DNA of 64,000 bases from positions 62,001 through 126,000 of the IMG/VR virus record IMGVR_UViG_3300036770_008028; one strand, written 5' to 3'. Position numbers and translations under genes: made by a program. Shown here piece by piece: positions 4,172-58,899 of the stretch (the first letter of the stretch is position 1; each line of letters starts with the position of its first letter). The notes under the pieces were generated by a model. That model was not told where the DNA came from, did no database searches, and was given only the letters and a program-made list of their open reading frames with translations. This stretch comes from a virus.

Positions 4172-7100
4172 ATGGCAAGACGCAGAACAGTAGACCTACT
4201 ACCTGAGATTTTCCGCACCGAAACCAACCGGCAGTTCCTGTCGGCCACCTTGGATCAACTCGCACAGGAACCCAACCTCAAGCGCACACAAGGTTATGTA
4301 GGTCGCCGAGTCGGGCCTGGAGTCAACCCTGCCGATAACTACGTAGCAGAATCTACGGCCGCACGAGCAGATTACCAGTTAGAACCAGGAGTGGTATTCT
4401 TCAGACCAGAGACCACCACGGCCACGGATGCTATCACGTATCCTGGCATGATCGATGCCTTGGCTTTGCAAGGTGCCAACACCGACCGCCAAGATCGATT
4501 GTTCCAGAGCCAGTACTATTCCTGGGATCCATTCTGCGATCTAGACAAGTTTACCAATTATAGCCAATACTACTGGTTGCCAGAAGGCCCGGATTCAGTA
4601 GATGTAAGTTCGGCATTCTATCCTACCACCGATTCGTGGGAAGTCACACGCAGCGGGGGTGCTTACCAGTTCAGCGACGAAGCCGGCAACAATCCTGTGA
4701 TCACTTTGGTACGTGGCGGCAACTATACCTTTGATGTGAGCCAGACTGGAAATCCGTTCTGGATACAGGCTGCTCCGGGCATCGCTGGCACCATGCCAGG
4801 TACGCCCAACATCTCTAGCCGCAATGTGCTAGGAGTGATCAACAACGGCGAAGATCTTGGTACAGTGACGTTTAATGTACCTCTCAAGACCGCACAAAAT
4901 TTCTTCTATGGACTTACCGATATCGGCACGGTGGATCTGATCACCGATATTAAATTCAACGAAATCAATAACATCTACGTCAGTGAATTCCTGCAGCGAT
5001 ATCCAGATGGTATCGACGGTATCACCAATCTTAACAATCGCACAGTGGTATTCACCAACCGAATTGAAAATGCACAGGACGGTGGATGGCAGATAACCAC
5101 ACAGTTTGATCCTCTGTTGAGAGAACAACCTCCTGAGATTATTACCAATGGTCTTCCTGGAAGTTTTGACACTACTTTGTTTGATCAGACCACGGACATC
5201 GCCACACAAGCACAACGCTATAGTATATGGCAGATACAGTATATCTTGGACAATGATGGTCAGCCTTTCATGCGCCTCGGCAGCATCCGTCCGGTGCCTA
5301 ATCTCAACAAGTTCAGCATAGCATTTGGTACTGAATTCAGCAGCACCCAGTGGTACAAAAATGCCGAGGGATTTTTTGAGCGCATACCGTTGCTTACCGC
5401 GGTGCTGGATACCTTGTATTATCAAGATGGCACAGATCCCACTATCTTTGGTCGTATACAACTGGTAGATCAGAGCGAAAACAATCCAATCAACATCGAC
5501 GATATCATTGGGGCTAAAAATTATATATCGCCCAATGGTGTGGTATTCACCAATGGACTCAAAGTACAGTTCCGCGGGCTAACCGAACCTGCACGTTATC
5601 AGGATCTTGAGTACTATGTGGAAGGTGTGGGTACGGGTCCCGGAATCGACAGTCGTGTGGGATTTATCGACGGTGAAGCCTATTTCGGTGCTTATCATAC
5701 TGTGGGCACGCAGAAGGTCACTGGTGCCACACAGAGCACTGAATTTTTCCAACAGTACATCTATGACACTGTGGAAGAAAGCCTGCTTAATATCGGCGCC
5801 GGAACTCCAGCCGGGGCTCCTTTGCCTCCAGATGGAATATTGAATGCCACGGTGGGCAACGGTATCAAATTGTTGCCAGTATCTAGTTTTGTCACTCCTG
5901 AAACGTATACTCGCAGCCTAAGTACACCTTACGACAGCACTCCTTACGATGCTACACCCTATGATGACACACTGAATGCACCTATCATTCCAGACTACAT
6001 CACTATAAATCGTGCCAGCCGAGATCTCAACCCCTGGACACGCAGCAATAGATGGTTCCACAGAGACGTGATCCAGGCTACGGCAGATTACAACAATCAG
6101 ATACCAATTTTTGACAATGATGCCCGCGGCAAGCGCCCCATCATTGAATTCCGCAACAATCTCAAACTGTTTAATTTTGGAACACAGGCCAAGATCCCAG
6201 TCAACATAGTGGACTTCCAAGAAACAGATGCACTCAGCAACATCAATGGCCAATTGGGCTACGGTGTTGACGGGTACAATTTCATCGACGGATCTTTGGT
6301 GATATTCGCTGCGGATATCGATCCAGATGTGCGCAATCGCATCTATCGGGTGGAGTTCATCGATCCTGATGGCACAGATGCATCGCCCAGGATCATCAAT
6401 CTCGAAACAGTTTTCCAAGGGGAAGCCTTGGTCAATCAAACAGTGGTCAGTCTCAGTGGAACCACCCAACAAGGACTGAGTTACTGGTTTGATGGCAGCA
6501 ACTGGATTCCGACACAGCAGAAAACCGGAGTGAATCAGGCTCCCTTGTTTGATGTCTATGATATCACTGGGCACAGTCTTAGCGATCAAACGGTGTACCC
6601 CAGCAGCACATTTGCCGGTAGTCGATTGTTCGGTTATGCAGTGGGCGGCACACAGAGATCCGACGAAGTGTTGGGATTCGCTCTGCAGTTCCTCAACATC
6701 AACAACGTGGGCGACATCGTCTTTGAGAATTATTTCTACACAGACACATTCCTCTACGTGAGGAATTCTGTGAGCCAGACAGAACCCATCAGCATAGGCT
6801 TCGTGCGCCAGTATGTGGATCGTACATCATTCTCAGATCTCATCGGATGGCAACGAGCAGCAGCAGAAAATCGCAGCCGCCAGGTGTTTAGATTCATATA
6901 TGACGATACGCCGTTGGTTTTGGATATACCAGTGGATGAAACTGCGGTGTATGCTCCGCTGCAGGTATTCCAAGGAACCACTTTCCTTGACCCCGATCAG
7001 TATACCTATGTGATTTCGGACAATGCCACAGTGATCACCATCACAGATCCTCCAGAGACTGGCACCATCATCGAAGTACAGGTGATCAGCAATGAGACCA

Positions 7101-10100
7101 GTGGTGTGGGTTTTTACCAGGTGCCATTGAATCTAGAAAACAATCCTCTCAATGAAAATTCAGAGAGGTTCACACTGGGCACTATCCGCACGCATTATCA
7201 GAGTATCGGACAGAATCTCCGAGACATCCGCGGTGACATCGACGGTCCCAACAATTCTCGAGACCTGGGCAATATCTTGCCCTACGGCGATAACATCGTG
7301 CAACACAGTTCGCCATTGGCCTTGTCCGGAGTATTCCTCCGTCGTCAGCAGTATGAAGTGATCTCGGCCATAGAGTTCAACTCGAGAGAATATCAAAAAT
7401 ACAAAGCCCTGTTGATTGATCTGGCCGGCAAAGGTGATTTTGTCAACAATACTCCCACACAGGTACTAGACACAGTGATGACCGAGATCGCTCTCACACG
7501 CAGCGATGTCAGTCCTTTCTATTGGTCAGACATGGTACCTTTTGGACAGAACTACACAGAGACCGTGTACACATTCAGTGCGATCAGTACTTCTACCTTT
7601 GACACCCGACAGACCTATGATTATACCCAGAGCAACTTCCAGGGTCTCAATGTCTATCTCAATGGGCGCATACTCACACGAGGTTACGATTACGAAACAG
7701 GAATAGACAGCCCCACTGTGACTATCACGGTGCCATTGACAGTGGGAGATGTGATCTCGATCCGCGAATTTGCTGTCACATACGGCAACTTTGTACCCAA
7801 TACCCCTACCAAGATGGGTTTGTACGGTGCCTATCGTCCACAGAAATTCCTAGACGAAACCTATGTCACACCCACGGAAGTGATACAGGGTCATGACGGA
7901 TCCATCACTGTGGCCTTTGGCGATTATCGCGATGATGTGTTACTGGAATTTGAAACACGCATATTCAACAACATCAAGATAACGAGTTCGATTCCTTTGA
8001 CCCAGGATGAAATCATTCCCGGACAATGGAGACAGACCGATTACACGCTCCAAGAGATAACAAATATTCTCGCGCCTGACTTTTTGAGTTGGGTTGGCTG
8101 GAACAAACTTGACTACACCGCCCAGACCTATGTTAGCGACAACGGATTCACTTGGAACTACAGTCAGAGCGCCAACAAGATCGATCAACAACCATTGCTG
8201 GGAGCCTGGAGAGGCATATACAACTATTACTATGACACCACTACTCCCAACACCACACCGTGGGAAATGCTGGGATTTTCTGAAAAGCCAAATTGGTGGG
8301 AAGACTACTACGGCCCTGCACCTTATACTTCGGGCAACTTGGTGCTGTGGGAAGATCTGGCCAATGGTCTGGTGAGAGATCCTGATGGTGAATATGTGAT
8401 ACCCCTATTCCGCCGGCCGGACTTGCTGCAAGTTATCCCGTCGGGATCAGAAGGTGCGCTGTTACCACCCATTGACGTGGCCACCGGCAACTATGACGCG
8501 ACCAGTTTCCGTAGATCCTGGGTGTTTGGTGACGATGGTCCGGTAGAGAATGTGTGGCGCACATCATCCGCCTGGCCATTCGCTGTGATGCGGCTATTGG
8601 CCTTGACCAAACCAGCCAAATTTTTCAGTCTGTTTGCGGACCGAGATCGCTATGTGTTTGATCCGAATCTGGATCAGTATCTCTGGGACGGCCGTTATAG
8701 ACTAGATGCCAAGCAGTTGACTCCTCTCTACGGCGAAGCCATAGACGGCCAGGCCACAAGCAAAGCAAGTTACATCAATTGGATAATTGATTATAATCGC
8801 CAGCGCGGCACCAACAGCACAGTGAGTCTTACCGAAACTCTCAACAACATTGGGGTACGGCTGTGCTGGCGCGTGGGCGGTTTTACTGACAAACGCTATC
8901 TCAAACTTTTCACAGAGCGCTCGACACCCAACAGCCTCAACACCAGCCTGCTGCTGCCGGACGAGAGTTATCAGATCTTGCTATACAAGAATCAACCATT
9001 CCGCCAGAGTGTGTTCAGCAGTGTTGTGGTACAGAGCACGGACACAGGGTGGCAGGTGTACGGATACAGCACCACACGTCCTTATTTCAATGTGCTGGCC
9101 AGCAGGCCCAATGGTAATTTTACCGTGATAACTGCCGGCGGTCAGACCGTGAGGGTAGCGTTGGACCACAGTGATGACGTGGTACAGGTGCCCTACGGAT
9201 ATACCTTTACCTCACTCACGGCCGTGTGTGATTTCCTTTACAGTTACGGTCTGCTGTTAGAACAGCAGGGATTCGTGTTCGACACACGTGAAAATGGTTA
9301 TATCATGAACTGGCTGCAGATGGCCCAGGAATTTTTGTATTGGGCTAATCAAGGCTGGGCTCCTGGATCGATCATCAACCTCAATCCAGGAGCCACAAGA
9401 GTATCTATCTCACAACCTTTCAGTGTGGTGGACAGCCTGGCTGAATTGCGACCAGAAAATCTCATTCTGAATCAAAATCGTCAACCATTACCGTCCGGCA
9501 ATCTCGTGATAGAACGCCTGGAAAACAAATTCCAGGTCACCAGTCTGACCAGTGATACCATAAATTTCCTCAATCTCAACTTCACAGCCTTTGAACATCT
9601 GGTCATCATTGACAACGTCACTGTGTTTGCTGATCTCATATATGAGCCCGTGACTGGTGCACGCCAGAGCCGTATCTTGGTATCCGGTGCCATCTCCGGC
9701 GACTGGAACGGCACAGTAGATGCGCCAGGTTTTGTGCTCAACGAAGACAACATACAGGAATGGCGACCAAATCAGCAGTACAGCAAGGGCGAGATCGTGT
9801 TGTTCAAGAACGAATACTGGTCCGCTTCTGAGATCATACAGCCTTCTCAAGAATTTGATTACACACTCTGGGTCAAGAGTGACTATGACCAGATACAGAC
9901 TGGCCTCCTGCCCAATGCTGCCAATGCTTCTGACCAATTGGCATCTGCGTATTCCATCTATGATGCGGCCCTGGATCAAGAAGTGGATCTGTTCAGTTTT
10001 GGATTGATTGGATTCCGTCCGAGAGAGTACATGCAGGCCCTGAATCTCGACGATGTCAGCCAAGTAGGATTGTACCAGCAGTTCCTAGGCAGCAAAGGCA

Positions 10101-13100
10101 CACTGCGCAGCGCAGAAATTTTCAGTCTGGCCGATCTGGGCAAAGAAATCGCGCAGTATGATATTGATGAATACTGGGCCATCCAGCGCAGCCAGTACGG
10201 CGCTACTGCCAATCGTAATTACATAGAACTACAACTCAATGCCGCTTTGCTCAAGAGCGATCCCAGTCTGGTGCAGGTTGTACAACCCCAACAGGTCTCG
10301 CAGGCCGACCAGGCAATTTTATTGCAAAACATCTGGAAAAGCAGTGCACCGTTGAACAGCACTGATATATTCCCTACCACGCTGGTAGCAGCACGTGATG
10401 CATCTTTGCCGTCGGCTGGCTATGTCAATCTTGAAGATGTAAACTTTACCACGTTTGATCTTGACACACTCACTGATATATTGAGCAGGATCGGCAGCAT
10501 CGAACAATTGGCCGTGGGCAGCACTATCTGGGTAGCCAAAAGCAACGCCTACGATTGGAATGTGTATCGAGCCGAGCGAGTTCCTGGAAATATCATCACA
10601 GTCAGTGACAATCTCGATGGCCTTGCTCTCGTGGAGTTCAATCGCCAGCACGGATTGAACACTGGAAATCAACTGGTCATCAGATTCTTCGACGAAGAAA
10701 TTGACGGTGCATATCGCGTGCGCGGTGTCCCCAGCCTTACCAGCCTGTTGATTGATTACCAGTTTGTAGGTGCTCAGACCACAGCTACTGGCCAAGGACT
10801 GGGATTCACTCTGCAGACTGCTCGAGTCGCACAAGCCAGTGACATAGTGGGATTGTCCTACAGCAAATTACTTGTACCAGGCAGCCTTACTTGGGTCGAC
10901 GACATCGGTATCGGCCGCTGGGCCGTGATAGAAAAAACCAATCCGTTTACTCCAGCAGACCAGGTAGATCCTGAACTTCCTGTGGAGAATTCTCGATTTG
11001 GCGCCAGCCTCACACAAGGCTTCCAGAATCTGGCAGCCATGGTTGGCGCACCGGGCTACGCCGGAGATGACAGTGCTCTGTCCGGAGCCAAAGGTGCGGT
11101 CTATACCTATGTCAAGATCGACACTGGTCGTTATGCACAGAACATAATCCTGTTGCTAGAAACTGAAGAAGCTCAAGGATTTGGCAATGCCATGGACATG
11201 GGCGACCAGACCTGGGCCGTGATAGGCGCATCAGCCAGTTGGAGCGGACGCGGTTATGCCGTGATTATATTCAATCCTCCCACCAGCAATGCATTCACTC
11301 AGCATCAGATCTTGCTGAGAGACACAGATGTGCAGGCCGGCGACGAGTTTGGCTACAGCGTGACTATCAGCCAAAATGAACGTTGGCTCTATGTGGGTGC
11401 ACCGGGCAACAACAGAGTTTTCGCCTATGGTCGTGTGGACGTACAAGAACAAAGCGTGCGATATGTCACCGACGGGGAAACCGGTGCCTTTAATTACAAC
11501 AATTCTATCACAGTAGCTGATGGTAGTCAGTTGGTAGTGGTACTCAATAATGTGGTACAGATCCTCAATACCGATTTCACGATAGAAAGTGGCAACGTTG
11601 TTTTCCCAGCGCCACCCCTCACGGGACTACCACTGATAATCACACGTCGCACCACACTGACTCCAGTGGGAGACGGAATAGAAGATACCTATGATCTCAG
11701 TGAGTTATATTCTGCTGATAATATCTATAGTTTTGCGGTCTATCTAGACAATGTGATACAGCGTCCTTACCAAGACTATACTTTCGACAGCAATACCAAA
11801 GAATTGGTATTTGCAGACCCGCCGGCAAATACCTCGCAGATTTCCATCAGGGCCACTACCTGGTGGCGTCCAGTCGCCGCACTCACTGATGCTGGGGTAG
11901 TCAATGGTGCGAGATTTGGTAACAGTGTCAGCACCACTACAGATGGCCGACAGGTCCTGATCGGAGCACCGTTCCAAGGACAAGCCGACACAGTGTCTGT
12001 GGCAGCAGGATCTTTTTCGATCGGCCTCGATTATCAGATTGAAACAGTGGGCACCACAGATTTTACCTTGATCGGCGCTGCTTCCAACACTGTGGGACTG
12101 GTTTTCACAGCCACAGGAACAGGCACCGGTAACGGCACAGCAGTACGCTATCAGCGACAAGGTTGTACCTATGTGTTTGATCGCTCAGTGGAAAGATTCC
12201 AGATAACCAATGCTTCACAGACTACGTACACCACTGTCGAGAGCTTGACCAATCCGGGTGCTCCGATCAATGTAAAACTCAACGGATCTTTCCTCACAAA
12301 CTCCACAGGCAATCCCAGCGGAGGATTCTCTATCACAGGTGCCAACACCGTGGACATTTCAGTGGATCTTGCTGTGGGAGACATCCTGGAGATAGAAACC
12401 AATCAATTTACTCTATTGCAGGTCATCGAGGACAGCGCACCATTCGAATCGGCCCGCTACGGCACAGTAGTGGATCAATGTATCAATGACTGTAGTCTGT
12501 ATGTCGCTGCGCCTTATGATGGTAGCGTGCTGCCTGAGGCCGGACATGTGCAGTTCTTGCAGAATCAGAGCAGAGTCTATGGCACGACCACTTCTCGTCG
12601 GGCCAATGCTACACTGACTCCGGGAGAATACCTGCGCGTCAATAATACCTATCTGGCAGTGAGCACACCTGCTACCTGGAGTTCTCTGTCAGCGTATGCG
12701 GCTGGAACTTTCGTGCTAGACGGTACAGATCTGTTCCGCGCTGTCATTGCTGTACCGGTAGGCACAGCGATCACCGATCTTGATCACTGGTTACCTACAA
12801 ATTGGGCTGCTGTTCTGTCTCAAGACATCAATGATAGCGGCATCCCCAACGTGTCAGCCAGCCTCACTGACAGCGATGTAGAATTTGAAGGTGATGGAGA
12901 TACCACTGAATTCTCTGTGGGCACAGCCTACTCTGCGGCAGATTCATACACAACTTTGGTTTATGTTGACAATGTGATACAAGCTTCGCCTGGTGACTAT
13001 GTCTACGACAACAATGATGAGACTGTGACATTCTCGACGGCACCCAATCGTGGTTCTACTGTCAGAGTCATAGCTTCGAGACTGATCATATCCGTGATCA

Positions 13101-16100
13101 ACGATGCCGCAGCAATTCCGTTGAGCAAACTCGCAGTGTTACCAGCATCCGATGCCGGCGGTATCGCCTTGTTTGATGATCTCGATTTTGAAACTTATGC
13201 AAGCCAGCAGATTATCCAGAGTCCGGTACCTCAGGCCTATGCGCACTTTGGTGCCGCAGTGTTCATCAGCGATAGCGTGGTTGATCTGGTTGTGGGTGCA
13301 CCGCAGGCCACGGCCTTCAACCCCACTACTTTTGACAATGGTACCACGATATTTGATGCTGCCAGCACCAACTTCTTGGATCCGGTGTCCGAGAGTGGTG
13401 CTGTCTATACGTTTGAGCTGCTGCCCGCAGCCAATGCATCTGTGACCAACCCTGCACAGTGGATATTCGGTCAGCAGTTGTACGATCCGTTGGTAGGCCC
13501 GTTGGACCAGTTTGGTACCGCAGTAGATTACACCACTGGTGTGCTCCTGGTAGGTGCACCAGGAGAGGATGCCGGGGACAGCAATGCCAACTACGGTACA
13601 ATAATAGAATTTAACAATCCTGACCGTCAACCGGCTTGGTCGATCAAGAGACTGCAACAGCCGGTGGTCGATATCGATCTCATGAACACAGTGTTCATGT
13701 ATGATCTCAACACTTCTGGTACCAAACAATATTTTGATTTCTTTGATCCTTTGCAGGGCAAGATCCTGGGCGCAGTACGGCAGAATCTTGATTACATCGG
13801 CGCAGTGGATCCAGCAGCCTACAACGTGGGCGCATTGAACAACTATGGCAATCGATGGGGACAGGATCGTGTGGGTCAAGTCTGGTGGGACACTAACCGT
13901 GCCAGATTCATCGATCCCAATCAAGACGACATAACCTATGCCAGCCGCAGATGGGGACAGCTTTTCCCAGGATCCAGCGTAGAAATATACCAATGGGTCA
14001 GCAGTTCGGTACCTCCTGCACAGTACACAGGCCCAGGAATACCCAAGTACACCGACAGTTATGTGATCACGTCCAACATCAATGAACAAGGTGTATTTGG
14101 AACCACATACTTCTTCTGGGTCAGTGGTATCCGCACTGTGGATCGCACTGCCCGCAAGACCTTGAGCATCGATACGCTCGCACGCTACATCGAGAATCCT
14201 CGCAGCAGCGGTATCGCTTACATCGCTCCCATGAACTCTAGCACTGTGGCCATCTACAATGGTCTAGAATACATCTCTGCGCAAGACACAGTGATACATG
14301 TAGAATACGATCAAACCCCCAATGATGCTGTGGTGCACGTGGAATACCAGTTGGTGGCTCAGGATCGCGGCGACTCATTCTTGACCGACGGGTTGTATCG
14401 CAAACTGCAAGACAGTTTCTGCGGCGTAGATCTAGTGGGAAATCCTGTGCCAGATCCCAGACTGGCACCCAGCGAGCTCTATGGCGTACAGTTCCGTCCT
14501 CGCCAGAGCATGTTTGCCAACAGGTTCTTGGCCTTGGAAAACTATCTAGTAGAAGTCAATCGAGTGATGGCCCAGTACCCCTTGGCAGAAAGTCGCAAGT
14601 TTCCTTTGTTGCTGAGCGAGGATCCAGAGCCAACACCGGGATCTGGCGCATGGAACAAGCGTGTGGCCGACCTGGCAGAACTCAGTTACCAAGATTTGCA
14701 AGCAGTGCCGGTGGGATATCTCTATCTTGTTGGCAATGACAGTGATAACAATGGTCTATGGACCATATACGAAGTACAGTCTGGGACTGTACCCGGAAGC
14801 CGTGTATTGGGGCTGATACGGGTGCAAAGTTATGATACCAAACTTTACTGGAAGTACATCAACTGGTATCAGGCAGATTACAATCCTCTCACAGTGATCA
14901 CGGCCGAAGTCGAGAATTTTGCTGACCTAGCCACTCTCACCCTGCCTGCCGGAAGCACAGTCAAGGTACTGGATAACGCCGCGGGCAAATTTGAAATCTA
15001 TAGACTTGACGCAGATAATTGGGTGCGCGTGGCTCTGCAGGACGGAACCATGGAGATCCTGCCGCAGATATGGGACTACAGCCTGGGACGATTTGGGTTT
15101 GACGTAGAAGTGTTTGATGCACAATACTTCGATCAGGAGCCCGTGACAGAGACACGCAGGATCATCCAGAGCATCAATCAAGAAATATTCATCGACGATC
15201 TTGAAATCGAGCGTAACCGTCTCTTGATCCTGATGTTCAACTTCATCCTGAATGAACAGATCGCACCGATATGGTTGACCAAGACCAGCCTCATCGATGT
15301 GAATCACACTGTGCGACGCCTGGAACCATTCCAGATCTATCGACAAGACAATCAAGACTTTGTGCTGAATTACATACAAGAAGTCAAACCCTATCATACC
15401 CAGATCAGAGAATTCAATCTAATCTACAGTGGTGACGATGTATGGGATGGTACAGTCACAGATTTTGACGTGCCTGCCTATTACAACACCACAGAGCGTA
15501 TGTTTGTGAGTCCGGTGTTGGACGATACCGGAACACTGAGCACCACATCTAGCACACCCAGCACCAGTGCAATTTGGCAGACCTTGCCTTGGAGCCAGTG
15601 GTATCAGAATTATCTCTTGAGCATAGCGTCAGTCACAGTGATCGATGGAGGATCTGGTTACACTGTTCCGCCCGAAGTGATAGTGACCGGAGAAGCCGAG
15701 CGTCCAGCCATCATGCAAGCACGAATCAACACCGCGGGCGCAGTGGTCGGAATCGACGTGATCGATCCTGGCCTAGGATACCTGACCACTGCGCTGATTT
15801 CTTTTGATGGAGGCAACGGTACCGGAGCCCGAGCAGTGGCAGTGATGCAGAACCAATTGGTGCGTGATTTCGCTGTGACGATCAGGTATGATCGATATGA
15901 GTATCAGTCCACGATCCGCGAATGGCAACCCAACGAAAACTATGACAATGGCACACAGGTGCGCTATCTAGACCGTGTTTGGGCAGCCAGCAGCGATGAC
16001 AGCACCGGAGTACAGAGTGCTACATTTGATCCAGATCAGTGGACACTGGTCAATGCTGCCACACTGAGTGGTGCAGATCGCACCATGGGATTCTACGCAC

Positions 16101-18478
16101 CTGGACCAAACGAGCCCGGGCTAGATCTAGCCCAATTGATATCCGGAGTAGACTACCCGGGTGTGCAGGTATCGGCACCCACCTTCAGTCAGAACACAGG
16201 CTTTGATGTGGGCAATTTTGACATCAACCCGTTTGACAACATCTCCATTGGGCCAGAAGGTCGTCCCACTTATGACCCTGCGATCTTGGATGCGATCTAT
16301 GAGAGCGAATTCACTGATCCTTATCTAGGCACCTTGCCGGCACCGGCCTACGCCGGCGATCCTCCCAACGGCGGCCCAAATCCCATCGTGGTAAGCGGTG
16401 GTGCCTTTGTCGACACTTATTCGAGCCATGCGCCAGAAGAACTGGTTCCGGGCGCTATATTTGATACCTTGGACTTCCGCGTGTTCACTACGCCGGGTTC
16501 GGATTGGACCCAAGACGGTCACGGGTACGATCAAGTAGATATCATCTACACCTACGATACAGAAAACAATACCTACAGTTGGGCTGATCTGGTAGATTAT
16601 CCTGTGGTCATTGGTGTGTGGAACGGCACACAAGGTCTGCAGTTAGATCTCGGAGCGGACTACACTGTGGATTGGGTGGCACAGACAGTGACCGTGACTT
16701 CGGGTGCGCTCAACGGCGATTTGATCTTGATCGCTGCTTATAATCTTGGTGGTGGCAATCAGATTTTCCGTAACAGTTACACCGGAACAGATCTTAGCAA
16801 CAACACCCTGGTCATACCGGTGCAAGACATGCTGATAGAAGAATTGGTAATCTTCGTCAATGGTTCTCCTGTTTCTGGATTTTCGTCAGCACCTTATCAG
16901 ACTTTTGAAACTGTCATAACTTTCTCATCATCCTATGGCGCCGCCGACGCTATCACTGTGATAGCCTTGGGTTCCGTAGACGATAGTTTGCCGTATTCGT
17001 GGAGCACTCCGGTCACTCAATACGCCGTGGCCACAGGTTCTTCTCTGGCATTTACCCTGACCAACAGCCTGCAGGGCACCAATCCGGCCAATCTCATAGT
17101 GTGCAAAAACGGCACACGAGCCCGGCCCGCCGAAGGTGTAGAGTATCTGTCGGATGGATCTAGTCTGCAATACTATCTACCAAATCGCGGCGGATATAAC
17201 CAGGGTCTGATCGCTGACAACGAAGTCAGTATCTATATCAACAACGAACCATTGATATTAGGGGTCCAGTTTTTTGTTGATCCTTTTGTATCAGGATCTG
17301 ATCGTACCATCACTCTGGCCGAGTTACCTCCAGTAGGCGCTGTGATCTTGATATCCGTGAATCACGCCGCTGATTATTATGTCAGCGGTGATACCTTGAT
17401 CTGGAGACCCACCAGTGGACTATTGCCTATCGCTGGCGATATCATCAGCATTACCTCATTCAATGATACCAGCCAGCAGGAACTGCTGACACAGGTGTTC
17501 CAAGGACCAACTACCACAGGAATCGTGGTCGGCCAAGGTTATGATACCACAGTCTACGACGAAGGCAATATCAGCGGAGATCCTGGAAGTTTTGATTACT
17601 CCGAAGGCTCGGCTATCCAGACCAATGCTTTTGATACCGGTCGCCCGATAGAAAATCCCAGTCGCCTTACTGTGACGCTGGATGGTCGCTTCCAGGTCGA
17701 AGGAGAAGATTTTATTGTCGATGGAACCGCTGTAGTGATATTGGGACCGATCATAAACGCAGCGCAGGTCGTGGCCATCACCAGTGTGACCCAGAGCATA
17801 CTGCCAGGTGAAATAGCATTCCGTATATTCCAGGATATGCGTGGTACACAGACCACTTATCGCATCACCGCTGCATCGACCACTGCGTTGACACAGATCC
17901 TCCGCCCACAAGATGATACTATCTACGTGGCAGATGCCAGCAGCCTCAGCGAACCCAATCTAGAACAAGGCCTGTTTGGTCTGATCACGATCAACGGAGA
18001 ACGCATCGCCTATCGTAACAGAGACACCACTAACAATACCTTGAGCGGATTAAGGCGTGGTACCGCAGGAACCGGTGCCGCTGAGCACGCCGCAGGAACC
18101 GCAGTTTATGACATTGGAATAGGTAATCTGTTACCAGAAGCATACCAAGATCGCACGGTGAAAGAGGATTTCTTAGCCGATGGTTCCGAGACTACGTTTA
18201 TTGCTTCGGGGGTTCCTGTGTCTTCACTCACGCTTGCGCAGGCACAGGAAGCGGTACAGGTATTTGTGGGAGGAATCTTGCAACTGGGTGGATACACTAT
18301 AACTGCCAATGATCCGTTGACCGTGGTGTTTGATCGTGCTCCAACCAATGGATATCAGGTGACTGTGCTGGTACAACAAGGATTGAGTTGGTACGAGCCC
18401 GGAATAGGTACTGCAAGCAATGGTATCGCCCTGCAAGAAACTGATACTGCTGCTGCTAGGTTTATCCGGGGTACTTGA
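4172..18478 (+). CDS. Giant 4768-residue virion protein with an FG-GAP propeller and chitin-binding-like modules
   Basis: This 14.3-kb gene directly follows gp6, the slot held by gp7 in T4. Its N-terminal part ('DLLPEIFRTETNRQFL', then 'SWDPFCDLDKFTNYSQYYW' near residue 117) resembles large baseplate or tail proteins of aquatic T4-like phages. Seven FG-GAP-like repeats ('..FG.s......lvGAP......G.vy.y') begin near residues 2272, 2336, 2390, 2578, 2760, 3023 and 3112, enough for one seven-bladed propeller with large insertions between blades. Three short WxxxxxYxxGxxVxYxxxxWxA modules (about 1864, 2836, 3918) resemble chitin-binding CBM5/12 folds. Many copies of a 'vyvDNviq..DYtyd....tvtFstaP..g..v.v' beta module and a TPYD triplet repeat (about residues 585-600) are also present. 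The C-terminal INGERIAYRN/LSGLRRGTAGT module (near 4607) is of a phage-fibre kind. Probable role: baseplate periphery and receptor or glycan contact. The exact role is inferred. Confidence 0.85.
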   Translation: MARRRTVDLLPEIFRTETNRQFLSATLDQLAQEPNLKRTQGYVGRRVGPGVNPADNYVAESTAARADYQLEPGVVFFRPETTTATDAITYPGMIDALALQGANTDRQDRLFQSQYYSWDPFCDLDKFTNYSQYYWLPEGPDSVDVSSAFYPTTDSWEVTRSGGAYQFSDEAGNNPVITLVRGGNYTFDVSQTGNPFWIQAAPGIAGTMPGTPNISSRNVLGVINNGEDLGTVTFNVPLKTAQNFFYGLTDIGTVDLITDIKFNEINNIYVSEFLQRYPDGIDGITNLNNRTVVFTNRIENAQDGGWQITTQFDPLLREQPPEIITNGLPGSFDTTLFDQTTDIATQAQRYSIWQIQYILDNDGQPFMRLGSIRPVPNLNKFSIAFGTEFSSTQWYKNAEGFFERIPLLTAVLDTLYYQDGTDPTIFGRIQLVDQSENNPINIDDIIGAKNYISPNGVVFTNGLKVQFRGLTEPARYQDLEYYVEGVGTGPGIDSRVGFIDGEAYFGAYHTVGTQKVTGATQSTEFFQQYIYDTVEESLLNIGAGTPAGAPLPPDGILNATVGNGIKLLPVSSFVTPETYTRSLSTPYDSTPYDATPYDDTLNAPIIPDYITINRASRDLNPWTRSNRWFHRDVIQATADYNNQIPIFDNDARGKRPIIEFRNNLKLFNFGTQAKIPVNIVDFQETDALSNINGQLGYGVDGYNFIDGSLVIFAADIDPDVRNRIYRVEFIDPDGTDASPRIINLETVFQGEALVNQTVVSLSGTTQQGLSYWFDGSNWIPTQQKTGVNQAPLFDVYDITGHSLSDQTVYPSSTFAGSRLFGYAVGGTQRSDEVLGFALQFLNINNVGDIVFENYFYTDTFLYVRNSVSQTEPISIGFVRQYVDRTSFSDLIGWQRAAAENRSRQVFRFIYDDTPLVLDIPVDETAVYAPLQVFQGTTFLDPDQYTYVISDNATVITITDPPETGTIIEVQVISNETSGVGFYQVPLNLENNPLNENSERFTLGTIRTHYQSIGQNLRDIRGDIDGPNNSRDLGNILPYGDNIVQHSSPLALSGVFLRRQQYEVISAIEFNSREYQKYKALLIDLAGKGDFVNNTPTQVLDTVMTEIALTRSDVSPFYWSDMVPFGQNYTETVYTFSAISTSTFDTRQTYDYTQSNFQGLNVYLNGRILTRGYDYETGIDSPTVTITVPLTVGDVISIREFAVTYGNFVPNTPTKMGLYGAYRPQKFLDETYVTPTEVIQGHDGSITVAFGDYRDDVLLEFETRIFNNIKITSSIPLTQDEIIPGQWRQTDYTLQEITNILAPDFLSWVGWNKLDYTAQTYVSDNGFTWNYSQSANKIDQQPLLGAWRGIYNYYYDTTTPNTTPWEMLGFSEKPNWWEDYYGPAPYTSGNLVLWEDLANGLVRDPDGEYVIPLFRRPDLLQVIPSGSEGALLPPIDVATGNYDATSFRRSWVFGDDGPVENVWRTSSAWPFAVMRLLALTKPAKFFSLFADRDRYVFDPNLDQYLWDGRYRLDAKQLTPLYGEAIDGQATSKASYINWIIDYNRQRGTNSTVSLTETLNNIGVRLCWRVGGFTDKRYLKLFTERSTPNSLNTSLLLPDESYQILLYKNQPFRQSVFSSVVVQSTDTGWQVYGYSTTRPYFNVLASRPNGNFTVITAGGQTVRVALDHSDDVVQVPYGYTFTSLTAVCDFLYSYGLLLEQQGFVFDTRENGYIMNWLQMAQEFLYWANQGWAPGSIINLNPGATRVSISQPFSVVDSLAELRPENLILNQNRQPLPSGNLVIERLENKFQVTSLTSDTINFLNLNFTAFEHLVIIDNVTVFADLIYEPVTGARQSRILVSGAISGDWNGTVDAPGFVLNEDNIQEWRPNQQYSKGEIVLFKNEYWSASEIIQPSQEFDYTLWVKSDYDQIQTGLLPNAANASDQLASAYSIYDAALDQEVDLFSFGLIGFRPREYMQALNLDDVSQVGLYQQFLGSKGTLRSAEIFSLADLGKEIAQYDIDEYWAIQRSQYGATANRNYIELQLNAALLKSDPSLVQVVQPQQVSQADQAILLQNIWKSSAPLNSTDIFPTTLVAARDASLPSAGYVNLEDVNFTTFDLDTLTDILSRIGSIEQLAVGSTIWVAKSNAYDWNVYRAERVPGNIITVSDNLDGLALVEFNRQHGLNTGNQLVIRFFDEEIDGAYRVRGVPSLTSLLIDYQFVGAQTTATGQGLGFTLQTARVAQASDIVGLSYSKLLVPGSLTWVDDIGIGRWAVIEKTNPFTPADQVDPELPVENSRFGASLTQGFQNLAAMVGAPGYAGDDSALSGAKGAVYTYVKIDTGRYAQNIILLLETEEAQGFGNAMDMGDQTWAVIGASASWSGRGYAVIIFNPPTSNAFTQHQILLRDTDVQAGDEFGYSVTISQNERWLYVGAPGNNRVFAYGRVDVQEQSVRYVTDGETGAFNYNNSITVADGSQLVVVLNNVVQILNTDFTIESGNVVFPAPPLTGLPLIITRRTTLTPVGDGIEDTYDLSELYSADNIYSFAVYLDNVIQRPYQDYTFDSNTKELVFADPPANTSQISIRATTWWRPVAALTDAGVVNGARFGNSVSTTTDGRQVLIGAPFQGQADTVSVAAGSFSIGLDYQIETVGTTDFTLIGAASNTVGLVFTATGTGTGNGTAVRYQRQGCTYVFDRSVERFQITNASQTTYTTVESLTNPGAPINVKLNGSFLTNSTGNPSGGFSITGANTVDISVDLAVGDILEIETNQFTLLQVIEDSAPFESARYGTVVDQCINDCSLYVAAPYDGSVLPEAGHVQFLQNQSRVYGTTTSRRANATLTPGEYLRVNNTYLAVSTPATWSSLSAYAAGTFVLDGTDLFRAVIAVPVGTAITDLDHWLPTNWAAVLSQDINDSGIPNVSASLTDSDVEFEGDGDTTEFSVGTAYSAADSYTTLVYVDNVIQASPGDYVYDNNDETVTFSTAPNRGSTVRVIASRLIISVINDAAAIPLSKLAVLPASDAGGIALFDDLDFETYASQQIIQSPVPQAYAHFGAAVFISDSVVDLVVGAPQATAFNPTTFDNGTTIFDAASTNFLDPVSESGAVYTFELLPAANASVTNPAQWIFGQQLYDPLVGPLDQFGTAVDYTTGVLLVGAPGEDAGDSNANYGTIIEFNNPDRQPAWSIKRLQQPVVDIDLMNTVFMYDLNTSGTKQYFDFFDPLQGKILGAVRQNLDYIGAVDPAAYNVGALNNYGNRWGQDRVGQVWWDTNRARFIDPNQDDITYASRRWGQLFPGSSVEIYQWVSSSVPPAQYTGPGIPKYTDSYVITSNINEQGVFGTTYFFWVSGIRTVDRTARKTLSIDTLARYIENPRSSGIAYIAPMNSSTVAIYNGLEYISAQDTVIHVEYDQTPNDAVVHVEYQLVAQDRGDSFLTDGLYRKLQDSFCGVDLVGNPVPDPRLAPSELYGVQFRPRQSMFANRFLALENYLVEVNRVMAQYPLAESRKFPLLLSEDPEPTPGSGAWNKRVADLAELSYQDLQAVPVGYLYLVGNDSDNNGLWTIYEVQSGTVPGSRVLGLIRVQSYDTKLYWKYINWYQADYNPLTVITAEVENFADLATLTLPAGSTVKVLDNAAGKFEIYRLDADNWVRVALQDGTMEILPQIWDYSLGRFGFDVEVFDAQYFDQEPVTETRRIIQSINQEIFIDDLEIERNRLLILMFNFILNEQIAPIWLTKTSLIDVNHTVRRLEPFQIYRQDNQDFVLNYIQEVKPYHTQIREFNLIYSGDDVWDGTVTDFDVPAYYNTTERMFVSPVLDDTGTLSTTSSTPSTSAIWQTLPWSQWYQNYLLSIASVTVIDGGSGYTVPPEVIVTGEAERPAIMQARINTAGAVVGIDVIDPGLGYLTTALISFDGGNGTGARAVAVMQNQLVRDFAVTIRYDRYEYQSTIREWQPNENYDNGTQVRYLDRVWAASSDDSTGVQSATFDPDQWTLVNAATLSGADRTMGFYAPGPNEPGLDLAQLISGVDYPGVQVSAPTFSQNTGFDVGNFDINPFDNISIGPEGRPTYDPAILDAIYESEFTDPYLGTLPAPAYAGDPPNGGPNPIVVSGGAFVDTYSSHAPEELVPGAIFDTLDFRVFTTPGSDWTQDGHGYDQVDIIYTYDTENNTYSWADLVDYPVVIGVWNGTQGLQLDLGADYTVDWVAQTVTVTSGALNGDLILIAAYNLGGGNQIFRNSYTGTDLSNNTLVIPVQDMLIEELVIFVNGSPVSGFSSAPYQTFETVITFSSSYGAADAITVIALGSVDDSLPYSWSTPVTQYAVATGSSLAFTLTNSLQGTNPANLIVCKNGTRARPAEGVEYLSDGSSLQYYLPNRGGYNQGLIADNEVSIYINNEPLILGVQFFVDPFVSGSDRTITLAELPPVGAVILISVNHAADYYVSGDTLIWRPTSGLLPIAGDIISITSFNDTSQQELLTQVFQGPTTTGIVVGQGYDTTVYDEGNISGDPGSFDYSEGSAIQTNAFDTGRPIENPSRLTVTLDGRFQVEGEDFIVDGTAVVILGPIINAAQVVAITSVTQSILPGEIAFRIFQDMRGTQTTYRITAASTTALTQILRPQDDTIYVADASSLSEPNLEQGLFGLITINGERIAYRNRDTTNNTLSGLRRGTAGTGAAEHAAGTAVYDIGIGNLLPEAYQDRTVKEDFLADGSETTFIASGVPVSSLTLAQAQEAVQVFVGGILQLGGYTITANDPLTVVFDRAPTNGYQVTVLVQQGLSWYEPGIGTASNGIALQETDTAAARFIRGT

Positions 18479-20751: not shown

Positions 20752-20796
20752 AAAAGGATTTAGTTGCCCAGCTATCATATTAAAAAAATGACGCCT

Positions 20797-20837
20797 GCGA
20801 TTTAGATCGCTTTACTGTAGTGTTGCTACAGAACGCC
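20797..20837 (+). promoter_or_regulatory. Two-hairpin 41-nt leader element, copy 1
   Basis: Hairpin 1 is GCGAT-TTAG-ATCGC (20797-20810), followed by TTTA. Hairpin 2 is CTGTAGT-GTT-GCTACAG (20815-20831, with one T-G inner pair), followed by AACGCC. A copy of identical length lies on the minus strand at 58196-58236. The last 27 nt differ at one base, and hairpin 1 differs in sequence but keeps pairing. It ends 49 nt before ATG 20887. It could be an RNA processing, stability or translational control element, or a pair of operator sites. A weak TAGTGT -10 overlaps it (20818-20823) without a good -35. Confidence 0.65.
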
Positions 20838-20886
20838 GTTGTTTGATAGCGTTGAATTAAATCAACTAATACAAAGGGAAAAAGAA

Positions 20887-21849
20887 ATGGCTTACAGTTC
20901 TGGATCACTGATCATCGATGATGATTATAATATATTTGCCACGGGCAATGCCTCCGGCACAGGCGACAACAACGTGGCCAATCTCAACACGGTCTGGGGT
21001 ACCGGAACCGGAGACAAGGGATGGGGACAGAGTAGCCCAGTTTCCGCGGTGAGCGCCGGATCGGTGATCACGGCCACACAATGGACCACGCTGCTTAATC
21101 GCATGACGGCCGAGGCCAATCATACCAATACTTCGATCACAGCAATTTCAAATCCCAGCGCAGGACAAACTATCACTGCTTTCACTGCTCTCAGCACCAA
21201 TATCACCAACATTTTCAATGGTCGTAACAATGCCGCTGCTGTAGGATCCACTATCACCCTTAATGGTGTAGCCACGCGTAGCACCGCCTGGGCAACATCT
21301 CTCACAGCCACGCACACTGTAACATTCGCTTCCGCAGATGCCATGCGCTACTTCTTCAACGCAGGCGGACGTATCACCTGGGCCGGCGCACGTTCAGGTG
21401 GATCGGTCAATGACAAAAACACTTCCTGGACCAATCTTCTCACAGCCTGCGGTACGCTGAACTGGACCACGGGCACATCTACCCAGACCATCGCAGGAAC
21501 TTCCTACACTGGAACCACCAAAGTGGGTGGCTCTGGTTCTCCTACCACACTGTTGACTGGCACTGGTTTCTATGATCTGACCACGGGCAACACCGAAGTA
21601 TTCAAGCAATTTGCCAGCACATATCTTTACACCGTGAACTTTGTTTCCGTCAATGTGAGTTTGAATGCTGTTCCGGGTTCTTCCACAGTAATGACTTTCA
21701 CTGTGCTGTTTTCGGATGTGGAAGCCTCTCCAGAAGAGAACGTGGACGGTACCTTGACATCCACCATAACCGCCGTGGCACCCAGCACTACCTATCTCTC
21801 AGCATCCTGGGGCACACCCACACTGGCCAGTTCGATCACCGGTAGCTAA
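20887..21849 (+). CDS. Ser/Thr/Gly-rich virion protein
   Basis: A 320-residue protein. ATG 20887 is preceded by AAAGGGAAAAAG, a good ribosome site, so the in-frame TTG at 20839 is not needed. The N-terminus ('SSGSLIIDDDYNIFATGNAS', then 'VWGTGTGDKGWGQ' and 'VITATQWTTLLNRMTAEANH') is typical of beta-rich virion or fibre proteins in T4-like phages of aquatic bacteria. No catalytic motif is visible. It has its own leader with the two-hairpin element at 20797-20837 and an intrinsic terminator at 21882-21909, so it may be a stand-alone, strongly expressed transcript. Virion role is inferred from style and position. Confidence 0.7.
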   Translation: MAYSSGSLIIDDDYNIFATGNASGTGDNNVANLNTVWGTGTGDKGWGQSSPVSAVSAGSVITATQWTTLLNRMTAEANHTNTSITAISNPSAGQTITAFTALSTNITNIFNGRNNAAAVGSTITLNGVATRSTAWATSLTATHTVTFASADAMRYFFNAGGRITWAGARSGGSVNDKNTSWTNLLTACGTLNWTTGTSTQTIAGTSYTGTTKVGGSGSPTTLLTGTGFYDLTTGNTEVFKQFASTYLYTVNFVSVNVSLNAVPGSSTVMTFTVLFSDVEASPEENVDGTLTSTITAVAPSTTYLSASWGTPTLASSITGS

Positions 21850-52237: not shown

Positions 52238-52257
52238 TAGTAGGTGCTTACCTACTA
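52238..52257 (-). repeat. Inverted repeat at the end of the ABC operon
   Basis: TAGTAGGT-GCTT-ACCTACTA, perfect 8-bp arms, overlapping the stop codon of the radical SAM gene. No T-run follows on the minus strand, so it is either a weak terminator, a 3' mRNA stabiliser or part of the MoxR control region. Confidence 0.5.
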
Positions 52258-54711: not shown

Positions 54712-55836
54712 TTACTTAGCGTGTGATAGATGTCTGAGATTTGATGCCAGAGGCCTCACAGGATACCAATCACTCAGTATGACTGGCAACCAATCACTAT
54801 CTCGCTGGTGTGGCACAGCAATTTTCGTAATCGTTTCTATGTCGCGCAATCCTTGTTGCCAGACTCCAAGTTCACTGCTGTTTTTATCATGGATGAGGTT
54901 TTTGGCTGACATACTTTCGGGACTGTTTGGATTTTGCGCGACTCGTGACTTAAGCCATCCCTGCCGCGCGCTGCTGTTGTCTACACAGGTTCGGCCCATG
55001 GCTCGGTTCCACACTTCATATTGCCAGTCCAGACATTGGTTACCTTGCACTTTGTGGAAATGATCAAACCCGTCAGGACCCATGACCATTATCATATTTT
55101 CAAAATGATCTATGGCCATGTGACACTGAGCCACGTGCAAATCGGTCAGATCATTGGTCATGTAGAAGAATTCGCAATCGGTATTCATGTACTGATACAT
55201 TCCGGCATCAACACCGAAATTGTACCATGTACCGTCGGCAAGCAGCACCCGAGGTTTGTCGTGAGCCCAGATATCAGCGCGTCGGCTGTGTTGGTCAATG
55301 ATCCGGGCAGTGCTAGATATATGATTTTGTAAAAAATATCTATGCATTTTTGGATACATAATGCTGCAGCCAGGACTGAAAATCCAATCTTCCCCTAGAT
55401 CACAGTATACCGAAGCAAAATGCCAGTGGTTGACAGGTACATGATTTACCACAAGTTTGGGCATGTGCTGTTGTTTTACCTGATGTGCGTAAGATACCGC
55501 ACTGTGGATTTCGGGATCATCAAACCACTGCCGATCATAGATCACCACCTCATCCAAGGCGATGCCATTGGCAACGAAGGCATCCAACACAGTGGTACTG
55601 TCCCATCCCCCGCTGAACCATAGAGTCAACCAATCATATCGGTCGCGCAGTTGCAGGCAACGCTGTCGAAGTAGGTCTTGCCATGTCGCAGACGGTCTTG
55701 CAAAATTGCACTGCCCAAATGTGGAGCGTAAAAAATTGAAACGTATACGAGATACATCTCCTTGTGCCTCTCGGAAAGCATCTATCTTGCTATGTGTACG
55801 ATAATTTCCCACCTCATAATAAAGTTCCTGTATCAT
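54712..55836 (-). CDS. PP-loop ATPase, asparagine-synthase-like
   Basis: A 374-residue protein. The PP-loop S75-G-G-W-D-S80 ('LWFSGGWDSTTVLDAF') binds the pyrophosphate of ATP, as in asparagine synthetases, thiouridylases and related adenylating enzymes. No N-terminal glutaminase domain with a catalytic Cys2 is present, so the nitrogen or sulfur donor differs or a partner supplies it. ATG 55836 overlaps the permease stop (ATGA). It could activate a carboxylate or amide in the same pathway as the oxygenase and radical SAM genes. Confidence 0.8.
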   Translation of the reverse strand: MIQELYYEVGNYRTHSKIDAFREAQGDVSRIRFNFLRSTFGQCNFARPSATWQDLLRQRCLQLRDRYDWLTLWFSGGWDSTTVLDAFVANGIALDEVVIYDRQWFDDPEIHSAVSYAHQVKQQHMPKLVVNHVPVNHWHFASVYCDLGEDWIFSPGCSIMYPKMHRYFLQNHISSTARIIDQHSRRADIWAHDKPRVLLADGTWYNFGVDAGMYQYMNTDCEFFYMTNDLTDLHVAQCHMAIDHFENMIMVMGPDGFDHFHKVQGNQCLDWQYEVWNRAMGRTCVDNSSARQGWLKSRVAQNPNSPESMSAKNLIHDKNSSELGVWQQGLRDIETITKIAVPHQRDSDWLPVILSDWYPVRPLASNLRHLSHAK

Positions 55837-56582
55837 CTACGTGGTATCAATCTTGAAAATGACCATGACATGATGCCACCCAAAATCATGATCATGAGCA
55901 GGCACGCGTAGACCTCTAGGTGATCGAATCTTCCCTTGAAGTCATACATCAAGGTACCAATGCCAATGTGTCCACCCACTGTGCCAAACACTATTTCGAC
56001 CGCAAACAGGATGCGCCACAGGAACATGAAATAGGTTTTGCTCAATGACACCAATCCCGGCAGCATGCTGGGCACATAGACCTTGATCACTGCCTGCCAC
56101 GGCGTGAGTCTTAGGTCACGTATCTGTCGGCTCCATGTGTCGTGACTGATGGTCACTAAGCTGTACACACTAGGCAAAAAAACCCAAAGCACGCCCCATG
56201 TCATGAGGGTGAAAATCAGGCTCTGTGAAAATCCAAAGAAGATCAAAAAAACCGGTAACCAACTCATGGTCGGGGTGGGTCCCAGCATATCACAAAAATT
56301 TATGGTGAGCCGTCGGGCAAATTTGTTAGGGTATGTGGCCAGTACAATGACCAACATAAGAATCGACACCATGGCAAATGATACCACTGTCATCCAAACG
56401 CTGTTTGCCACTGCCTCTAGAAATTGCACCCTGCCCAGCATTTCAACCAGTTTTATCAGTACCAAATGTAGATGCGGCCACAGCAGCTGATTGTCTACCA
56501 CCCATGCTGTGGTCTGCCACAGCATGGCCAGCAGTAGCAGCATGGCCAGTCTAGTCTGAAAGGTATTGTTTGACATGGTCAT
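55833..56582 (-). CDS. ABC importer permease (nitrate/sulfonate/thiamine-precursor type)
   Basis: A 249-residue membrane protein with about six hydrophobic segments: the first at residues 11-30, then clusters near 60-85, 100-130 and 125-150, with two more after 180. The cytoplasmic EAA-like loop is 'IRDLRLTPWQAVIKVYVPSM' with 'LPGL' following, as in SsuC/TauC/ThiX-type permeases that contact the ATPase. The gene overlaps the ATPase by 32 nt and the PP-loop gene by 4 nt. With its neighbours it completes an importer in the inner membrane. Confidence 0.88.
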   Translation of the reverse strand: MTMSNNTFQTRLAMLLLLAMLWQTTAWVVDNQLLWPHLHLVLIKLVEMLGRVQFLEAVANSVWMTVVSFAMVSILMLVIVLATYPNKFARRLTINFCDMLGPTPTMSWLPVFLIFFGFSQSLIFTLMTWGVLWVFLPSVYSLVTISHDTWSRQIRDLRLTPWQAVIKVYVPSMLPGLVSLSKTYFMFLWRILFAVEIVFGTVGGHIGIGTLMYDFKGRFDHLEVYACLLMIMILGGIMSWSFSRLIPRR

Positions 56583-57180
56583 AGGTGATTTGTTCCGGTC
56601 GGAGTTTGATCAATGAGTCTGGGGTCAGCATGCAGCAGTGATCCGACAGCAAAGCGGCCTCGTCGATGTTGTGTGTGATCCATAGCACTCCTAAATTTTG
56701 TTCCCTGACCAATCTACGGAAGTCATCTGCTATGGTCATCGCAGTGAAACTATCCAGATGATTCAACGGTTCATCGCACAGCAGCAGTTCTGCTCCACGA
56801 TATATAGATCTCAACAACACAAAGCGCTGCCGTTGACCACCGCTGATCTCGTCAGGTCTGCGATCGATCAGCGGTGTAAGTTTCCAGCGCTCCGCCACTG
56901 TGGTCCAGGCTTCATTGACCTTGGCCAGCAGGAAATTTTGTTTCACGGTCATCCAGGGAAACAGTTGATTGTCTCCCTGGTACACACTGTGCAAGATTGG
57001 CTTGCCTATGATTCGACCTTGGTGTGCAAGGTCACCTCTGATGGACTCCAACAAGGTAGTTTTGCCCACCCCACTGCGGCCCATCAGTACCAGAATTTCT
57101 CCTGGCCTGATTTCGAGGTCAACCTGCGGTAGGCAAGCCACACCCTGCCGCAAGGGTTGAAAACCTTCAAGACGTATCAC
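56551..57180 (-). CDS. ABC importer ATPase subunit
   Basis: A 209-residue protein from GTG 57180, which overlaps the previous stop (GTGA); the frame extends to a TTG at 57219. Walker A 'GRSGVGKT' (34-41), Q-loop 'YQGDNQLFPWMTV', signature 'ISGGQRQR', Walker B 'LLLCDEPLNHLDS' and H-switch 'WITHN' are all intact, so it should hydrolyse ATP. Length and motifs fit the NitT/TauT group. Q-loop 'DNQLFPW' is as in SsuB/TauB. Confidence 0.92.
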   Translation of the reverse strand: MIRLEGFQPLRQGVACLPQVDLEIRPGEILVLMGRSGVGKTTLLESIRGDLAHQGRIIGKPILHSVYQGDNQLFPWMTVKQNFLLAKVNEAWTTVAERWKLTPLIDRRPDEISGGQRQRFVLLRSIYRGAELLLCDEPLNHLDSFTAMTIADDFRRLVREQNLGVLWITHNIDEAALLSDHCCMLTPDSLIKLRPEQITYDHVKQYLSD

Positions 57181-58136
57181 AGCAGATCTTCGCGCCAGAT
57201 GATGCTTTTTTGGTCCCAAGACTTCATGCTGCCTGCAGGTAGCATGCCCATTTCTTCAGTTAGATGCAACCAATCCATCACAGCAGGTGTGAATTTGGTA
57301 AAGGCAACTATGTTCATCTCTTTGTAGTAGCGCACGATGGTATCAGCGTCAAGGTCTTTGAGATCATGTCTTTCTACCATGGCTCGCGCCAGGACCGGCA
57401 TGTTAGTGTTGTACTCCTGCTGAGCCACCTTGATGGTATCCAGCAAGGCCAGTGCCAATTTGGGATTGTCTTTGGCCCATTGTGTGTTGATCACTGCAGA
57501 ATTAAGAAAGCCGGTTTGACCGGGATACAGCACTCGGTTACCCATTTCGCGCAATTTATTGCTGATTGGTGCTCCTTGGATAGCACAATCAATACCTTTC
57601 GTCCCACTGGCAAATGCCTGCAGTGTCTGTACTTGGCTGAGCAACACGATCTGGTCTTCCAGCGCCAAGGGGTCACCAAAATTATCGCGGGCCAGTTTCT
57701 GGATGATCAGATGACTGCCGCTCTGCTTGCCCGAAATGATGATGCTGCGTTTGTTGGCTTTGATGTCCTGGATATCTTTCACATAGGGCTTGCAGACCAA
57801 TGGGGCGTCTGAAGTATTGAACATGCTGATAAATTGCAGTTTTCCCGGAGACTCTTTGTGCAGTTTTACGATGGTGGGCAAACTGGCAATGTTGATGTGG
57901 CTCTTGCCAGTCATGAGATTGGTCAAGGCCTCCACTGAGCCTCTGGAATATTGGATTTCCAATTTTGCGTTGTTGATGCCGTGGCGCTTGGCCACTTCCG
58001 GAAAGTGTTTTTGCATGGACAGCACGATCATTTCCGGACTGGCCAATTTTACTGCGGTCAAAGTGAGCGTCTCGGCCCAGGCCACGGATGTGGTCAGTGC
58101 AGCGGCCATGACGGTCCCTAAAAAGATGCGTTTCAT
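57177..58136 (-). CDS. Periplasmic substrate-binding protein of the ABC importer
   Basis: A 319-residue protein. ATG 58136 has GGAG 8 nt upstream. The signal peptide is clear: MKRIF, a hydrophobic stretch, and AWA before ETLTL, with no lipobox Cys, so it is exported and soluble in a Gram-negative periplasm. The fold pattern ('LTAVKLASPEMIVLSMQKHF', 'EALTNLMTGKSHINIASLPT', 'DCAIQGAPISNKLREMG') fits the NMT1/SsuA/ThiY type-2 binding proteins, whose ligands include sulfonates, nitrate, riboflavin and thiamine precursors. The ligand cannot be deduced. First gene of the seven-gene operon, with the two-hairpin element in its leader or promoter. Confidence 0.88.
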   Translation of the reverse strand: MKRIFLGTVMAAALTTSVAWAETLTLTAVKLASPEMIVLSMQKHFPEVAKRHGINNAKLEIQYSRGSVEALTNLMTGKSHINIASLPTIVKLHKESPGKLQFISMFNTSDAPLVCKPYVKDIQDIKANKRSIIISGKQSGSHLIIQKLARDNFGDPLALEDQIVLLSQVQTLQAFASGTKGIDCAIQGAPISNKLREMGNRVLYPGQTGFLNSAVINTQWAKDNPKLALALLDTIKVAQQEYNTNMPVLARAMVERHDLKDLDADTIVRYYKEMNIVAFTKFTPAVMDWLHLTEEMGMLPAGSMKSWDQKSIIWREDLL

Positions 58137-58195
58137 CAAAAAATCTCCATAAAGATGTAAGTGAAATTGCTAGTAGAAGAACTCTACACACGGTA

Positions 58196-58236
58196 GGCGT
58201 TCTGTAGTAACACTACAGTAAAGACATTGATATGTC
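58196..58236 (-). promoter_or_regulatory. Two-hairpin 41-nt leader element, copy 2
   Basis: On the minus strand hairpin 1 is GACAT-ATCA-ATGTC, then TTTA, hairpin 2 CTGTAGT-GTT-ACTACAG (perfect 7-bp arms), then AACGCC. Same 41-nt length and order as at 20797-20837. Hairpin 1 differs at two positions in each arm, but pairing is kept. Ends 59 nt before ATG 58136. Confidence 0.7.
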
Positions 58237-58238
58237 AA
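58210..58238 (-). promoter_or_regulatory. Sigma70-type promoter of the ABC-importer operon
   Basis: TTGACA (58238-58233), 17-nt spacer, TAGTGT (58215-58210). The -35 overlaps hairpin 1 and the -10 overlaps hairpin 2 of the repeated element, so binding of a regulator or a transcript start could both depend on these sequences. Confidence 0.65.
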
Positions 58239-58316
58239 GCGTCTAAGAAAATCCGACGTCGAACCATTCGGCGCTGCTGAATTTATTTATTGCAGCAAAT
58301 CGTGTTAAATAAAAAA

Positions 58317-58880: not shown

Positions 58881-58899
58881 GCCCCATAACAGGGCCTAT
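58877..58899 (-). terminator. Intrinsic terminator of the tmRNA transcript
   Basis: ATAGGCCC-TGTTATG-GGGCCTAT followed by a T-run on the minus strand, right after the tmRNA coding piece. On the plus strand a looser T-run also follows, so it may serve the gene at 58317 as well. Confidence 0.8.

Follow-up and report, generated by a model that had tools for sequence, protein, structure and literature searches.

The leader of the Escherichia coli ompA transcript is a stabilising 5' leader in which the 5' end of the transcript is base-paired. In phage T4, the mobile regulatory cassettes named PeSL, which Arbiol et al. reportedly described in 2010, are said to consist of early promoters and simple stem-loops. 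Predicted glutamine (glnA) riboswitches are known in T4-like phages, for example in the methylophage Melnitz (PMC9004378), and the yjdF motif, as it stood before ligand studies (PMC4793209), was an orphan riboswitch candidate.

Here, we analyse a 109-nt element found in a 64,000-nt stretch of DNA (the window; bases 62001–126000 of a 157,498-base virus record) that resembles each of these systems in part. Like the Melnitz riboswitch, it is a predicted structured regulatory RNA in a T4-like phage genome, but its sequence differs, the glutamine riboswitch models of Rfam (glnA / Downstream-peptide) do not match it, and it heads uptake operons, not tmRNA. As in the yjdF motif, a conserved covarying leader goes with an uncharacterised gene family, whereas the element is phage-only here, follows a late-type promoter box, precedes many transporter families and shows no evident expression platform. 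A paired 5' end is common to the element and the ompA leader, but the element also has near-invariant unpaired residues and is confined to about one operon in each phage. With PeSL it shares the union of a promoter and an RNA stem-loop near exchangeable phage genes, but it has a multi-helix RNA and an invariant core; membership of the PeSL cassettes was rejected because the box is of the late TAAATA type, not an early sigma-70-type promoter.

Architecture and position of the element

The first-pass annotation had noticed a 41-nt two-hairpin sequence on both strands, at 20797–20837 (+, copy 1) and 58196–58236 (−, copy 2), and its description holds. The copies are equal in length and layout and agree at 33 of the 41 bases, the final 27 nt showing a single-base difference; hairpin 1, GCGAT/ATCGC in copy 1 and GACAT/ATGTC in copy 2, is a compensated stem, and gaps of 49 and 59 nt separate the copies from start codons that begin 50 and 60 nt past the last base. 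This likeness far exceeds chance and reaches further upstream, to GACGCYTG. Copy 2 is the middle of the 109-nt element (Table 1), of which that annotation had seen only part. A LexA-type box, suggested by CTGT...ACAG, was rejected, as its spacing is 9 rather than 8 and its arms covary.

The exact 27-nt core also occurs in three other viral contigs, and relaxed pattern searches recovered dozens more loci with the same layout and flanking hairpins. From the pattern matches we extracted 81 distinct elements and aligned 70, drawing the structure from the sequences and then testing it. The covariance model R1, trained on 70 copies, gives copy 2, a member of that training set, 111.6 bits (E 9e-21) and copy 1, which lies outside it, 45.5 bits (E 4e-7) as a partial match over 20784–20839. 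In all, the element occurs in about 80 other uncultured-phage loci. A search of the 157,498-base record with the covariance model, as had been proposed, found no third copy.

P1, P0, P4 and P5 flank or enclose the two central hairpins, P2 and P3. P1 has an outer pair that is A-U in 59 sequences, G-C in 13 and G-U in 11, and a C-G to G-C swap in one locus (L055). The strands of P0 lie some 60 nt apart and change together, to GGG/CCC in L065 and L072 and to CAG/CTG in L017 and L053. P5 joins the terminal 5' GC to the final 3' GC, and in L022 and L037 the first and last bases change together to A-U. Near-invariant positions are unpaired in 19 of 30 cases, mainly within GACGC.UG, UUUA and AACGCC, and the P2-P3 module stands in tandem within one scaffold in three loci (L021 134–305, L039 231–402 and L099 1800–1990). 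Specific recognition, and not simply a hairpin, is indicated by these unpaired positions together with the doubled modules, and P2-P3 is likely the recognition core. A subtype with P1 and P2-P3 and no recognisable P4 (L004 5267–5375, L005 4117–4225 and L130 11592–11706) precedes TctA or F0-like genes.

Table 1. Coordinates in the window of the element, its operon and the lone module
Feature	Position	Strand	Basis or remark
TAAATA box, T4-late-type promoter of operon	58284..58289	-	12 nt before the element's first base
Structured leader RNA, full length (P5-P1-P0[P2,P3]-P4), predicted	58169..58277	-	model R1, 111.6 bits; covariation in alignments A1, A3
P1 hairpin, conserved C.A mismatch	58256..58274	-	outer pair A-U, G-C or G-U
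P0 5' strand CGG (partner CCG 58191-58193)	58253..58255	-	compensated changes
P2-P3 module, GACGCUUG-[P2]-UUUA-[P3]-GAACGCC, includes copy 2	58196..58243	-	near-invariant unpaired residues; tandem copies
P0 3' strand CCG	58191..58193	-	compensated changes with 5' strand
P4 hairpin, pyrimidine-rich loop (possible weak anti-Shine-Dalgarno)	58173..58187	-	five covarying pairs
Periplasmic substrate-binding protein, operon gene 1	57177..58136	-	signal peptide by eye
ABC transporter ATPase	56551..57219	-	PF00005
ABC importer permease	55833..56582	-	PF00528
F0, PP-loop (SGGxDS) enzyme	54712..55836	-	near element in 14/15 records
GCTATCA, 5' strand of 7-bp stem around lone module (3' strand 20844-20850)	20771..20777	+	predicted fold
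Lone P2-P3 module, includes copy 1	20790..20837	+	model R1 partial match, 45.5 bits
Virion-region hypothetical protein, gene after lone module	20887..21849	+	no Pfam or PHROG match

Covariation, strand asymmetry and promoter position bear on whether the element acts as RNA or DNA. The 70-sequence alignment contains 245 double-change cells against 67 with partners shuffled. Among 90 model-fitted sequences, such cells number 375, compared with 89 after shuffling, 96.6% of cells are paired, and sliding the partners by one to three columns lowers pairing to 24–55%; the smaller alignment is the fairer test, because the larger was fitted to the model. On the sense strand the helices hold 43 G-U wobbles against 17 A-C (p = 0.001, an optimistic value given the relatedness of the sequences and an alignment fitted to the model), so that the strand-symmetric palindrome conservation expected of paired DNA operators is not found. 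T4 late promoters carry TATAAATA at about -13 to -6. TAAATA begins 10–15 nt (mostly 11 or 12) ahead of the element in 76 of 81 loci, against a background of 0.8%, a TATAAATA-type box at fixed spacing like that of T4-type late leaders. If the T4 late geometry holds, this near-fixed distance therefore places the predicted +1 at the element's first base. In the element operon the box lies 153 nt from the ATG, whereas other TAAATA boxes in the window's phage mostly give short leaders, often of 10–40 nt.

The suggestion of an RNA structure in the leader is thus backed by the covariation, the sense-strand wobble bias and the box at near-fixed distance, and a leader RNA is well supported. The same three observations, with the covarying long-range helices P0 and P5, disfavour the alternative that had been offered, two stacked DNA operator half-sites. 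More broadly, we hold it very improbable that the element works as DNA, whether as such half-sites or as a recombination cassette that moves uptake genes between phages, although the cargo varies behind the same leader and the module occurs in one virion spacer while absent from relatives. A self-cleaving ribozyme or a separate small RNA would fit the compact multi-helix fold and invariant core; it is the least probable of the readings, given that Rfam ribozyme models do not match the element and that a start codon about 20–35 nt past the element in most loci leaves little room for a terminator.

Occurrence and gene context

The element is restricted to phages within the collections searched. 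Rfam 15 holds no family that matches it at the gathering threshold, and no relevant match even at E up to 10. Isolate phages and plasmids in the collections searched gave no BLAST match, and a pattern scan covering 84,980 species of bacteria and archaea (one genome each) gave nine matches, none with the element layout; these resemble coding sequence, and a bacterial origin was rejected. Distant relatives could be missed in these searches, because neither BLAST nor pattern searching is as sensitive as a covariance model. The RNA family appears to be undescribed: no prior description was found in the part of the literature that was searched. The carriers are T4-like, with the Gp23 capsid protein (PF07068) in 14 of 15 records and a T4-type major capsid gene in the window's own record, and their hosts are apparently betaproteobacterial. 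Phage records of 130–349 kb carry one copy in 13 cases and two in the remaining one of 14; as the records were reached through copies, presence in them is by construction, but copy number is not.

In the window, the operon runs from the binding protein through the ABC ATPase and permease to F0 and further genes. The binding protein has no Pfam match and a weak match to TIGR01729, below cut-off. Within 52255–54242 (−) the same gene cluster holds a twitch-domain radical SAM protein (NF033640) and, at 53478–54242, an Asp/Arg-hydroxylase-like oxygenase. A permuted tmRNA gene of betaproteobacterial type lies just upstream of the operon (58873–59234, −), a tmRNA gene likewise lies about 2.5 kb from the element in L052, and nine tRNA genes cluster at 62600–63958 (−).

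In the other phages the element is followed by genes for uptake, TRAP binding proteins among them, and for enzymes rather than by virion genes. The first downstream genes, of which representatives were confirmed with profiles, include 30 TctC-like binding proteins, DctP-type, SBP_bac_8 and ABC binding proteins, TctA, porins, a sodium/solute symporter, TauD-type oxygenases, a tryptophan halogenase, DUF2061 and F0. A link to all TctC genes was rejected: most of those at other sites in these phages have late-type boxes, yet no element, and the full covariance model run without filters found no hidden elements before them. What the element goes with is therefore a particular operon and not TctC genes in general. 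Four of these other TctC genes (L272, L274, L276 and L279) have a TAAATA box and then a different hairpin at the predicted start (e.g. CAAGACC...GGTCTTG).

F0 lies near the element in all but one of the 15 records: in 12 it follows the element on the same strand, no more than about 3.1 kb away, in G010 it is just upstream, and in G009 it is on both sides. The sole exception is G016, which has the element and no F0 that we could find. This linkage may be partly inherited, because the phages are related. F0 belongs to no family in Pfam or NCBIfam. Its AlphaFold model (pLDDT 88) resembles PP-loop enzymes, with LarE as the best PDB match at a low TM-score, and also unnamed proteins of uncultured phages. 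Members are about 18–35% identical to the window's F0, and 43 diverse phage members were aligned; an F0 profile proved too variable for a collection search of further loci.

The lone module at the virion gene

P1, P5 and the CGG/CCG P0 are missing from the virion-gene copy, of which the model scores the P2-P3 module only. Its immediate upstream sequence has no TAAATA; those at 19254 and 19279 lie ahead of the upstream gene. The hypothetical protein encoded behind it has no Pfam or PHROG match. The module is absent before all nine relatives of the virion gene, the relative L261 has a hairpin without the module at the corresponding place, and blastn of the virion spacer returned chance pieces only. 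Further upstream of the virion gene region lies a 4768-codon open reading frame (4172–18478, +). The first-pass annotation had taken the two copies to link the metabolic operon to virion gene control; this part of its account is not supported, since the virion copy is partial, has no box directly upstream and is missing from the nine relatives. The module here is most simply read as a recent transfer that may be without function.

Possible functions of the leader

We favour, at a probability of about 0.48, a cis-acting leader with a P2-P3 recognition core, most likely a small-molecule aptamer, that tunes the late uptake operon. The structured RNA would occupy about +1 to +109, at the 5' end of a single late transcript; P5 would close the junction of P1, P0 and P4, with P0 enclosing the P2-P3 module; and this module, as an aptamer most likely for a small molecule, would bind a ligand and so tune stability or translation of the operon, uptake proteins and F0 alike, late in infection. 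We infer the ligand recognition, as well as the direction and mode of control. The element has the covarying 5'-leader structure and the highly conserved unpaired core of a riboswitch. Further points favour this reading. First, some aptamers are also doubled, as the module is in the three tandem loci. Second, there is usually one copy per record, at the head of uptake operons of different transporter families. Third, F0 is close by in nearly all records, and other TAAATA boxes mostly have short leaders. Fourth, a predicted riboswitch is already known in T4-like phages (PMC9004378).

Other observations count against it. No expression platform is evident: sequestration of the ribosome-binding site was not seen, real and shuffled elements leaving this region equally accessible by prediction (0.55 vs 0.54), and complementarity of the P4 loop to ribosome-binding regions is 4.81 vs 4.35 for shuffled letters, without locus-specific matching. 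The cargo is heterogeneous (porins, 2OG oxygenases, a halogenase) and suggests no shared pathway for a ligand; the element is absent from other TctC genes of these phages; and, unlike most riboswitch classes, it is carried by no bacterial genome in the scan. In addition, a single copy has a predicted fold no better than its own shuffles. The more specific proposal, a phage-confined riboswitch class in which a late-transcript aptamer senses a host metabolite and tunes an import-and-modify operon around F0, is accordingly put forward as tentative and rather doubtful.

Second in our order of preference, and unlikely, is a constitutive leader that senses nothing and whose paired 5' end protects the late mRNA against 5'-end-dependent decay or aids translation. 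The pairing of the first two bases with the last two, compensated in L022 and L037, with +1 predicted at the first base, is consistent with it, as are the open ribosome-binding region and the TSS-proximal hairpins at the start of these phages' other late TctC genes. Stability alone, however, does not account for the near-invariant unpaired residues, the doubled modules or the limitation to about one operon per genome.

Third, and less probable again, a phage or host protein, possibly F0 itself, might bind P2-P3 and repress or stabilise the mRNA, as a form of autoregulation. PP-loop enzymes include RNA modifiers, which fits such binding, as do the F0 linkage and the lone module in another transcript. 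Against it, the best solved fold match of F0, LarE, is a small-molecule sulfur transferase, F0 has diverged widely whereas the RNA core varies hardly at all, and G016 keeps the element without F0.

Whichever of these applies, the element defines a strongly covarying RNA family outside Rfam 15, so far seen only in uncultured large T4-like phages, and it draws attention to F0, a phage enzyme family not yet studied, as its partner. Its predicted place at the start of a late transcript, before the uptake cluster, suggests a phage-specific RNA control device. A dedicated RNA leader is here joined to viral auxiliary (nutrient-uptake) genes, and regulation of such genes by the phage according to cell state therefore becomes directly testable with one 109-nt RNA.
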